Source of the DNA: an uncultured Paenibacillaceae bacterium
GTDB taxonomy: Bacteria; Bacillota; Bacilli; Paenibacillales; K13
Reading direction: 5' to 3'
Length of the DNA: 64,000 bases
Assembly: GCA_913056365.1 (NCBI GenBank)
Contig: CAJXLT010000001.1
Coordinates: forward strand, 434,001 to 498,000
The notes under the pieces were generated by a model. It searched no databases, was not told the origin of the DNA, and worked only from the letters and a program-made list of their open reading frames with translations. Positions 31,047 through 34,399 of this stretch are shown piece by piece (positions within the stretch are counted from its first letter, which is position 1; each line of letters starts with the position of its first letter). A program made the translations under genes and the position numbers.

Positions 31047-31065
31047 GAAGGAAATGATTTCGATA

Positions 31066-31072
31066 TGTCGAA
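31066..31072 (+). promoter_or_regulatory. 0A box upstream of spo0A (box 3)
   Basis: TGTCGAA, a perfect core match, 51 bases before the TTG start and near the likely 5' end of the message. This position suits autorepression or fine control. Confidence 0.6.
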
Positions 31073-31122
31073 TAGTATGCAAGGAGGAAATAGTTAAACC
31101 AATCGAAGGAGGAATGTTTACG

Positions 31123-31914
31123 TTGCAGAACATTGAGGTGCTCTTGGCAGACGATAACAGAGAATTCACTTCTCTTCTCTCGGAATATATCGAGGAACAG
31201 GAGGATATGTCGGTAGTCGGTGCAGCTTACAATGGGGAAGAGGTTCTTCACCACATTCAGAATGGTCGTGTTCCCGATGTCCTGATTCTGGACATTATCA
31301 TGCCTCACCTCGACGGATTAGGTGTGCTGGAGAAGCTAAGGCAGCTGGACTTGCAGCCGCAGCCCAAGGTCATTATGCTTACCGCATTCGGGCAAGAGAA
31401 TATTACGCAGAAAGCGGTGCAGTTAGGCGCATCTTACTACATATTGAAGCCATTCGATATGGAAGTACTTATTCATCGCATTCGTCAGCTCGTCAGCAAC
31501 ACCCCTGCAGTCGCAGCGGGTGCACCGATGAAGGTCAATGTCGTGTCGATGAACAAAGGGAAGAATCTGGACGCCAGCATTACGAACATTATTCACGAAA
31601 TCGGAGTGCCTGCGCACATTAAAGGGTATCAGTACCTGCGTGAAGCCATTACGATGGTATATGGCAATATCGAAATTCTGGGCGCAATTACGAAGACACT
31701 GTACCCATCCATCGCCGAGAAGTTCAAGACGACGCCAAGCCGCGTAGAACGTGCGATTCGCCACGCGATCGAAGTCGCCTGGACGCGCGGCAATATTGAC
31801 TCGATCTCGCAGCTGTTCGGCTATACGATCAACATCTCGAAGTCCAAGCCGACGAACAGCGAATTCATTGCAATGGTGGCAGACAAGCTGCGGATTGAGC
31901 ATAAGGTGAGCTGA
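31123..31914 (+). CDS. spo0A: Sporulation master regulator Spo0A
   Basis: A 263-residue response regulator. The receiver domain (residues 1-125) has the acidic pocket LLADDNREF, the phosphorylated Asp57 in [13 protein letters not shown] and the lysine in YILKPFD. The C-terminal effector domain has the DNA-recognition helices ([21 protein letters not shown]) and ends [17 protein letters not shown]. The TTG start at 31123 is 10 bases after AAGGAGGA and gives [12 protein letters not shown], the usual N-terminus; ATG 31114 is only one base from that motif. Several 0A boxes precede it, suggesting autoregulation. Confidence 0.97.
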
Positions 31915-31954: not shown

Positions 31955-32001
31955 ACCACTGCTTTATTGGGTTCCAACATCCAATGAGGGAGTGGTTTTT
32001 T
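31955..32001 (+). terminator. Rho-independent terminator after spo0A
   Basis: ACCACT (31955-31960) pairs with AGTGGT (31991-31996), and inside it TTATTGG pairs with CCAATGA. Six T follow. The rest of the gap to 32206 holds no gene I can support. Confidence 0.9.
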
Positions 32002-32205
32002 GTATGACTGATTATGAGTTTTGACGCTTGATTACTGCCGATCGATCTTGCTGATGATAACACTGCTGTCGAGTGAGACGATTGGATGTCAACTTAATGT
32101 GACTGCTACAGTATAATTTCCTTTCTGAATATTCCTCTGTATAAAATCGGATCCTCCAGCCAAAATAAAACAGGCTATTCCAATCGTACAGAGGAGCGGA
32201 TAAAT

Positions 32206-32841
32206 GTGAAAAACAAATGGTTACTTGCGGTACTGTTCTTTTTGCTGTCTGTTGTTAGTATGATGCCAGCCGCTACTGTGCAAGCGAAGGGCGAGGATTG
32301 TGTAAGTCCCAAATCGGCGCAGTTGAAAACCGACATGCAGAAGGCTTGGATCGATCATACAATATGGACAAGAAGCTATATTGTGAGCGCCCTTGCTGAT
32401 CTCGAAGATCAACAGGACGTATTAGACCGGTTGTTGCAGAACCAGCAAGATATTGGCAACCTGATCAAGCCTTATTATGGGGAAGCAGTGGGTGACAAGC
32501 TGGCAGATCTTCTCAGAGAACATATCGTAATCGCCGGGAAAATTGTAGCAGCTGCCAAAGCGGATAATGAGAAGCAGGTCAAAACGTTAGCGACGGAATG
32601 GCATAGAAACGCCGACGATATTGCCAAGTTTTTGAGCGAAGCGAATCCGAATTGGCAGTTTACAGAGATGCGAGATATGCTGTACACCCACTTAAAGTTG
32701 ATAACAGAAGTAGTGCAAGACCGGATCAATCGGAATTGGAAAGCCGATATTGCAGCAACGGACAAAAATGAGGTTCATATGATTCATTTTGCAGATATGT
32801 TGGCAGAAGGCATTGTGAAGCAGTTCCCTGATAAATTCTAA
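32206..32841 (+). CDS. Secreted helical-bundle protein of unknown function
   Basis: A 211-residue protein with a clear signal peptide (residues 1-27, NKWLLAVLFFLLSVVSMMPAATVQA) followed by an all-helical domain with regularly placed His/Asp/Glu residues: DHTIWTRSYIVSAL, QQDIGNLIKPYYGE, REHIVIAGKIV, EWHRNADDIAKFL, HMIHFADMLAEGIVKQFP. I recall similar short exported proteins in many Bacilli, often with unreliable enzyme names. A metal-binding four-helix bundle is plausible but unproven. GTG start with GAGGAGCG upstream. It is monocistronic as far as can be seen. Confidence 0.7.
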   Translation: MKNKWLLAVLFFLLSVVSMMPAATVQAKGEDCVSPKSAQLKTDMQKAWIDHTIWTRSYIVSALADLEDQQDVLDRLLQNQQDIGNLIKPYYGEAVGDKLADLLREHIVIAGKIVAAAKADNEKQVKTLATEWHRNADDIAKFLSEANPNWQFTEMRDMLYTHLKLITEVVQDRINRNWKADIAATDKNEVHMIHFADMLAEGIVKQFPDKF

Positions 32842-32851
32842 GAACAAACAG

Positions 32852-32880
32852 TTGAAACCAAACAAACGTTCGTATATAAT
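32852..32880 (+). promoter_or_regulatory. Promoter with LexA-type operator ahead of the YolD-like gene
   Basis: TTGAAA (32852-32857), 17 bases, TATAAT (32875-32880): a near-consensus sigma-A promoter. Inside the spacer, CAAACAAACGTTCG (32859-32872) matches the Bacillus LexA (DinR) box CGAAC-N4-GTTCG with one mismatch. LexA bound here would block RNA polymerase. Confidence 0.7.
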
Positions 32881-32917
32881 ATAGTTATCGAAATTATTGA
32901 AGTGGGGTTGATAACAT

Positions 32918-33241
32918 ATGTATGCGGACAAGTTAACTAGTGGCTATCGGAACGGAATGAAGAATGAGCAGCCATTGCTACGCTGCAGCAATCCATATCA
33001 TAAGAGGCAGAAGCCCGTTCTGGATGAGAAGCGGCTTGCCGAGTTCGTACGTGTCATGGGTGTATCGATGTTCACAGAGAAGCCTGTGAAGATCAAGCTG
33101 TATCAGGACGATGCGGATGTGGAATTGGTCGGTCTGATTGATAAGATCGCTACAGACTCCAGACAGTTGAAGATCGGCTTCGAGCATACATATGAATGGA
33201 TTACATTGGACGATGTCATTGACATGAAAATTGTCTTATAG
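32918..33241 (+). CDS. YolD-like protein, probable SOS gene
   Basis: A 107-residue protein with the YolD-like domain: an N-terminal polar segment, then PVLDEKRLAEFVRVM, PVKIKLYQDDADVELVGLIDKIATDSRQLKIGF and ITLDDVIDMKIV. YolD proteins usually sit beside Y-family DNA polymerases (uvrX-yolD, yqjW-yqjX in B. subtilis) and are DNA-damage induced. Here no polymerase is adjacent, but the promoter carries a LexA-type box. The start ATG 32918 follows GTGGGG. Biochemical function unknown. Confidence 0.75.
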   Translation: MYADKLTSGYRNGMKNEQPLLRCSNPYHKRQKPVLDEKRLAEFVRVMGVSMFTEKPVKIKLYQDDADVELVGLIDKIATDSRQLKIGFEHTYEWITLDDVIDMKIVL

Positions 33242-33253
33242 AAATGTGCAAGG

Positions 33254-33294
33254 GACTGTCCCATTAGCCATTATAGATGGCGTATGAGACAGTC
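33254..33294. other. Hairpin between convergent genes
   Basis: GACTGTC (33254-33260) pairs with GACAGTC (33288-33294), with inner pairs GCCA/TGGC. There is no T-tract on either strand. It lies between the YolD-like gene and the reverse-strand gene ending at 33317, and may serve both 3' ends. Confidence 0.5.
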
Positions 33295-33316
33295 TTGCTG
33301 TTGAAGCATGGATTAG

Positions 33317-34399
33317 CTAAGTATCCAACCTTAATGCGGACAGGATGGCATCACAGAGCAGCTTGTCCCGCTCCTTCATCTCGGGAATCATGTTCAGCAT
33401 ATCTCCGAAGATGGATTTGTCTTGCTTCCTTAGGAATTTCAGCTTCGTATTGCGGAAGGCCAGCGCTGTTCTCATCAAGGACTCTGCATCCTTCACAAGC
33501 TGATTACCTGCGGACGGATTGGTGAAGTGATTCGCTTGATGCAGAAGTTGGACCAGTTCGTACACACACTTCTTATGATCGAACAGGATTTGGAATGGTA
33601 AGATATTAATGTAGGACTGATGGGCAATAAGCGCTTGGATGTATTCCTCAAACTTCGTATATACTTCAAGTCCGAATACCGCTTGCTCATAAGTATGCGG
33701 CAGCATGGCTAGTCTGGTAGAAGTGTTATGGCTATGCAGGTAGTCACTTAGCAGCTGATGAATGAGGGATATATGTAGCTCAGTATGAGCGTCTTCGCGC
33801 AGCTTTATTACTTTGAGAGGTCTTGTCGGTACGTCATCAATGTGCAGAATGAGGCTGCTGTAAGGAATCGTCATGGATTGGAATTGCCTCGTGGTCGTGA
33901 AGGTGAAGTCCAATACGTGATAGACCTGTTCCTTATCATCGAAGCCGTGTATGAGCAAGTTACTGTAACGGTGCCGCTGCGCATAAGCGTGTGTGTGGGA
34001 TAAGTAATATTGATCGCAGTTCACTTCGACATAGCGGCCTTCATCAATTCGTGTCCGGATGAAGGTAGTTGCGGAATCCTTGGTGAACCACGCCGGATCG
34101 GTCATGTGGATCTCTAACCAAGGATTTGGCGTATAGTCGTCGGTCAGGCAGTCATGAATGAGATAAAACTGCAGCCAGTGGTAGTCATCTTTAATTTCGC
34201 TTCGCGTATACAATTGCAAAAAACGATTGAGAATCCAAGAGCGGCTTTCAGGGACATTGGCCATGATTGCGAAGGGGATGCAATAATTTTTGTAAGACAT
34301 GATGAGGGGCTGTCCGATTGGTAACACCTTTTTCACTAACTCACCATCCTTTGGCACTTTTATTTCCTCATCGTACGCAATCAAGTCGGCAGGCGTCAA
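33317..34399 (-). CDS. Orphan BtrH_N-like protein (possible papain-like fold)
   Basis: A 360-residue cytosolic protein without signal or membrane segments. A cysteine near residue 39 (YKNYCIPFAIM), the segment TRIDEGRYVEVNCDQYYL near 120-135 and SNLLIHGFDDKEQVYHVLDFT near 148-168 resemble the butirosin BtrH N-terminal (peptidase C39-like) fold found near peptide and aminoglycoside biosynthesis genes. The C-terminal half (190-360) is helical and unrecognised. No biosynthetic cluster is adjacent. The only upstream start is TTG 34399, one base from GAGGG, so the start is doubtful. Family assignment is tentative. Confidence 0.5.
   Translation of the reverse strand: MTPADLIAYDEEIKVPKDGELVKKVLPIGQPLIMSYKNYCIPFAIMANVPESRSWILNRFLQLYTRSEIKDDYHWLQFYLIHDCLTDDYTPNPWLEIHMTDPAWFTKDSATTFIRTRIDEGRYVEVNCDQYYLSHTHAYAQRHRYSNLLIHGFDDKEQVYHVLDFTFTTTRQFQSMTIPYSSLILHIDDVPTRPLKVIKLREDAHTELHISLIHQLLSDYLHSHNTSTRLAMLPHTYEQAVFGLEVYTKFEEYIQALIAHQSYINILPFQILFDHKKCVYELVQLLHQANHFTNPSAGNQLVKDAESLMRTALAFRNTKLKFLRKQDKSIFGDMLNMIPEMKERDKLLCDAILSALRLDT

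Follow-up and report, generated by a model that had tools for sequence, protein, structure and literature searches.

The YolD/YqjX family (PF08863), whose members would be the small subunit in the putative YqjW/UvrX mutasome, is among the closest described relatives of the protein considered here. In published AlphaFold modelling, as far as it could be consulted, an N-terminal arm of YolD (WESSRMMLPEHK) is inserted into the Y-family polymerase (PolY), and in the available text of PMC12926913 all three described types of small subunit share this arm, the arm-only and YhjD-type forms among them retaining it with the barrel missing or replaced. In the accessible part of another report, the PolY2–YqjX interaction was undetectable in the hands of one group (PMC13335488). 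The Staphylococcus aureus SACOL1986 gene is described in the available text of PMC6511836 as a yolD distant from uvrX that has its own LexA site, and the same text places YolD in a WYL-like superfamily; SACOL1986 was not found in the accessible part of PMC7683395. The LexA consensus of Gram-positive bacteria is given as CGAACRNRYGTTYC, with AACn4GTT as the Firmicutes core, in the available text of PMC2248561. The portions available, supplements aside, of PMC6511836, PMC12926913, PMC13335488, PMC13239906 and PMC2248561 make no mention of an armless YolD.

The window, i.e. the whole stretch of 64 000 nucleotides that was analysed, contains a solo gene of this family, P0001 (table 1). In the preliminary description it was presented as a YolD-like gene standing alone behind a TTGAAA-N17-TATAAT promoter with a LexA box in the spacer. 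The coordinates and letters of the promoter (32852–32880) are correct, and it is the best of three within 32000–33500, a background of 2.9 sites with at least nine matches being expected by shuffling. The assignment to the family also holds, the score against the PF08863 YolD profile being 45.4 bits with a cut-off of 27.5, for profile positions 17–93 of 94. What is unusual here, as read from the sequence, is the missing N-terminal arm, which had been overlooked. A solo position and SOS control are not new, since S. aureus is reported to have a yolD that is separated from its polymerase gene and has its own LexA site (PMC6511836, available text).

Table 1. Features of the P0001 locus (positions within the window).
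Feature	Position	Strand	Remarks
−35 hexamer TTGAAA	32852–32857	+	11 of 12 matches jointly with −10; TTGAAC aligned in sister genome
LexA-box-like operator CAAACAAACGTTCG	32859–32872	+	inside promoter spacer; kept in sister with altered centre
−10 hexamer TATAAT	32875–32880	+	11 of 12 matches jointly with −35; identical in sister
Probable ribosome-binding site GTGGGG	32902–32907	+	read by eye; identical in sister
Solo YolD-family gene P0001, 107 aa	32918–33241	+	ATG at 32918, stop ends at 33241; PF08863
P0001 N-terminal 31 residues (expected place of the arm)	32918–33010	+	arm motif absent; mostly predicted disordered
P0001 small beta-barrel domain	33011–33241	+	helix and five strands; purifying selection

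The operator is found 45 bp upstream of the P0001 ORF. The −35 hexamer begins 11 bases past the end of a same-strand ORF of 211 aa (32206–32841, +), which lies between spo0A (31054–31914) and the P0001 gene, has a signal-peptide-like start and matched no family above the cut-off in a Pfam search; this ORF is missing from the corresponding spo0A–yolD interval of the sister genome (G001, the only other genome of the genus covered here). The next gene downstream, on the opposite strand (33317–34399), encodes a 360-aa protein with a sub-threshold BtrH_N match (26.5 bits versus a cut-off of 29.7), and also adjoins yolD in the sister.

The operator had been said to be one mismatch from the Bacillus LexA consensus; this is correct for the palindrome CGAACN4GTTCG, whereas by our own count two mismatches separate it from the published CGAACRNRYGTTYC. 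As one-mismatch sites are common, a chance match in front of a constitutively expressed gene was the first explanation considered. Three sites with at most one mismatch to the palindrome, CAAACAAACGTTCG among them, are present within the window and 189 in the 4.65-Mb genome, fewer than the 480 of a reversed control pattern, so that the match by itself is weak evidence. The genome encodes its own lexA, the promoter region of which contains five sites (CAAACATTTGTTCT, CGAACGGGTGTTTG, CGAACAAATGTTTT, AGAACTTATGTTTG and CGAACTCCGGTTCT); all of them fit RAACN4GTTY, and the second, read on the opposite strand, is CGAACN4GTTTG, with the same outer variant as CAAACAAACGTTCG. In the sister genome, where the orthologue is flanked by the same spo0A and 360-aa genes, the promoter reads TTGAAC-ACAAACGTATGTTCGTA-TATAAT and the operator, CAAACGTATGTTCG, occupies the same spacer position with both half-sites kept and a different centre (AAAC versus GTAT), the −10 hexamer and the ribosome-binding site being kept as well. 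What makes the operator convincing is this conservation, together with its presence at 16 of the 17 loci of this kind in the order, on which grounds the chance match was dropped and is now considered highly improbable.

The latter figure comes from a search of 392 genomes of the order with a profile (A1) of the P0001 kind, in which 17 intact loci scored at least 94.9 bits and the next best 74.2; since 10 of these loci had served as search seeds, membership of the group is to some extent circular. RAACN4GTTY is present within 120 bp upstream of the start in 16 of these 17 loci, which belong to few genera, are not independent and had their start codons set by eye, compared with an expectation of 0.18 when each upstream region was shuffled 1000 times by dinucleotides; among 414 control windows of 120 bp taken elsewhere in these loci, 10 contain it. 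The exception (G217) carries GAATGTATGTTC, by eye one base off the core; a related broken copy in this genome, with two stop codons, was left out of the set. Judged by eye, the operator lies in the promoter spacer in the genus of the window's genome, and directly after the −10 hexamer in most other loci. Nine loci from named Paenibacillus species show the same pattern, and were not added to the 17 because at least some are evidently the same genomes as those counted. A LexA-type operator is thus found in the promoter of P0001 and is conserved in its orthologues, and the gene is very probably under SOS control, the operator pointing to LexA binding and to induction.

The absence of the arm was evaluated by local alignment of N-termini with the armed form. 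P0001 scores 23, a value equalled by 51 of 500 shuffles, and the sister protein 15, equalled by 480 of 500, so that neither alignment reveals an arm, while an armed relative included as a control scores 111, equalled by none of 500. The N-termini of P0001 and of the sister protein show no clear likeness to each other, with 37 of 500 shuffles as good, and in the AlphaFold2 model of P0001, built from 56 sequences, residues 1–23 have pLDDT values below 50. The barrel gives a different picture, in that 67 of 76 residues are identical in the two species, and dN is 0.06 against a dS of 2.2 (NG86) or 1.0 (YN00), with dN/dS far below 1. A decaying paralogue that kept its SOS promoter and lost its job would agree with the loss of the arm, with the unlike N-termini and with the related copy interrupted by stop codons in G217; however, the constraint on the barrel, along with the promoter, operator and ribosome-binding site all kept in the sister, argues against decay, which is regarded as quite improbable. 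Since its N-terminal arm is lost, P0001 is probably not a standard polymerase subunit, arm-mediated binding presumably having gone with the arm.

The model comprises a helix (residues 37–53) and five strands, with pLDDT of at least 90 for 67 of the 107 residues and above 90 across most of the barrel. Both the model and its structural matches identify the small SH3/Sm-like beta-barrel of the YolD family. The best of these matches are WYL domains (PafBC, DriD and CapW) and Hfq (Z of 9 to 10 over approximately 60–74 residues), in agreement with the WYL-like superfamily placement of YolD in the available text of PMC6511836, but identity is approximately 6–21% and P0001 has no DNA-binding domain, so that function is not transferable. 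The barrel is acidic (net charge −4). This points to a protein rather than naked DNA as the partner and counts against unaided binding of nucleic acid; free nucleic-acid binding by analogy with WYL domains and Hfq is accordingly disfavoured. A sequence search of the PDB gave one chain among the matches listed (E 0.33), and UmuD′ is absent among the best 50 matches in each of two structural lists, which excludes nothing. No relatives of P0001 were found in viral_contigs, nor in genome_contigs with P0001 as the sole query.

In a FastTree phylogeny of the barrel (76 columns; one tree method, moderate support), P0001 and the sister protein fall beside armed solo proteins of another genus, g22 (support 0.825), the other armless group being placed elsewhere. 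This placement does not support a single loss of the arm, which seems instead to have disappeared on more than one occasion. One member of the other armless group (L151) retains an arm remnant, YMILPEHH. Of at least two such losses, one would have taken place in the genus of the window's genome, beside the armed g22 relatives, and another in a separate group in Paenibacillus species.

With respect to the polymerase, the gene is indeed alone, as had been claimed: PolY genes are present only at C1:63158 and C12:93836, and P0001 is encoded at C1:466918. The genome search for yolD genes near those of Y-family polymerases that the preliminary description had proposed located a second YolD (C12:92651), an armed one beginning with MSKKLQGNGLWESSRMMLPEHKE, just downstream of the PolY gene at C12:93836 and in the same orientation, with LexA-type sites upstream. 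P0001 therefore differs from YolD/YqjX in lacking the N-terminal arm and in not adjoining a gene for a PolY of the YqjW/UvrX type, while it shares with them the barrel, an above-cut-off profile match and a LexA-type operator. Like SACOL1986, it is encoded at a distance from the polymerase gene and has a LexA site for itself; P0001 is armless, and its genome has a second, armed YolD. With the arm-only and YhjD-type subunits in the available text of PMC12926913, P0001 has in common that all are modular pieces of the same small-subunit kind; those forms keep the arm, whereas P0001 keeps the barrel.

Small subunits beside PolY differ between the two species of the genus, being an armed YolD in the window's genome and, in the sister, a barrel-less protein in which a degenerate arm is joined to a different domain (L128 2501–3001). 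Upstream of PolY on C12 an ORF of 129 aa (L027 1385–1774) resembles by eye a YhjD-type helical domain without arm; a LexA-type site precedes its sister homologue (L128 1990–2412) by some 200 bases.

A census of 60 genomes of the order yielded 137 YolD hits. The statement that YolD-like proteins usually accompany Y-family polymerases is borne out for 41 of the 85 full-length armed YolDs, which have PolY within 3 kb, and not for the other 44. None of the four genomes with a gene of the P0001 kind has PolY within 3 kb of it on the same contig, and among the 28 genes of the order that rank next in similarity to P0001, two have PolY alongside and 19 a core LexA site upstream. A further 44 full-length hits start late in the profile, i.e. 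are armless, and consist of 35 members of group A, the four of the P0001 kind (G000, G001, G042 and G054) and five assorted ones. Group A (KRPTRDEFELEEL; KRPTRDEFELEELGNQL; L088–L126, e.g. L116, G056:C1:2687799-2688029) is a second armless subfamily present in many genomes, mostly once per genome. A core LexA site lies in the 170 bp before the domain in only four of its 35 members, so that group A is mostly not composed of SOS genes, and the proposal that all armless YolDs are SOS genes is ruled out. That none of the 44 armless hits is beside PolY mainly reflects group A and is therefore no proof for the P0001 gene. Four genomes of genus g8 (G008, G015, G020 and G024) contain between 6 and 10 YolD hits apiece, most of which are armed and lie at a distance from PolY.

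These data bear on two ways in which P0001 could still serve a polymerase. In the first, it would function in trans as an ordinary small subunit of the mutasome, serving a Y-family polymerase encoded elsewhere, and the barrel would suffice by itself. The distant S. aureus yolD with its own LexA site offers a precedent (PMC6511836, available text), and in the sister a barrel supplied in trans would complete the arm fusion that adjoins PolY. Against this, P0001 lacks the arm shared by all three small-subunit types (PMC12926913, available text), the PolY of its own genome is already adjoined by an armed YolD, and the barrel has been conserved between the two species despite their different PolY partners. 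Action in trans, one of the two roles that had been envisaged, is thus disfavoured because the polymerase-inserting arm is missing and the genome has an armed YolD in the PolY operon, and it is considered unlikely. Alternatively, YolD may be split, arm and barrel being separate proteins and the SOS-induced free barrel docking on an arm protein encoded beside PolY, as could be imagined from the arm-only subunit (PMC12926913, available text) and from the barrel-less arm protein of the sister. The sole arm match in the window's genome is, however, the full armed YolD itself, and G054 likewise has armed YolDs adjoining PolY, which makes a split improbable. The other role envisaged, a separate SOS role of the free barrel, is favoured from the sequence evidence, though unproven, and the near-unchanged barrel in two species with different PolY partners fits a role that is not tied to one such partner.

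According to the explanation proposed here, the P0001 gene would be a single-gene SOS unit, in which LexA bound to the spacer between the −35 and −10 hexamers keeps RNA polymerase off. Upon DNA damage, RecA would trigger self-cleavage of LexA and, judging from the operator, the gene would be expressed. Its product would be a barrel of the YolD/UmuD-analogue type, deprived of the arm that in the modelling takes YolD/YqjX into the YqjW/UvrX-type polymerase, and the free barrel would act in the damage response without arm insertion. Most plausibly, it may touch a mutasome partner (RecA, the outer surface of the polymerase or the partner of the armed YolD), thus tuning translesion synthesis. The combination of SOS control with a free barrel that acts in the damage response and is not a standard polymerase subunit is put forward with moderate confidence. 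More tentatively, armless LexA-controlled YolD barrels might form a class of SOS effectors distinct from polymerase subunits, arisen through at least two losses of the arm. Rather than entering a Y-family polymerase, such barrels might, for instance, damp the mutasome or redirect it.

The view of YolD/YqjX as a UmuD-like polymerase subunit is disputed. In a natural form that combines SOS control with a selected barrel but has no arm of the kind proposed to bind the polymerase, the two parts of the protein are set apart, and any activity left to this form must be that of the barrel. The armless form makes the arm model directly testable, and it is also a warning that the YolD family label need not mean a polymerase partner.
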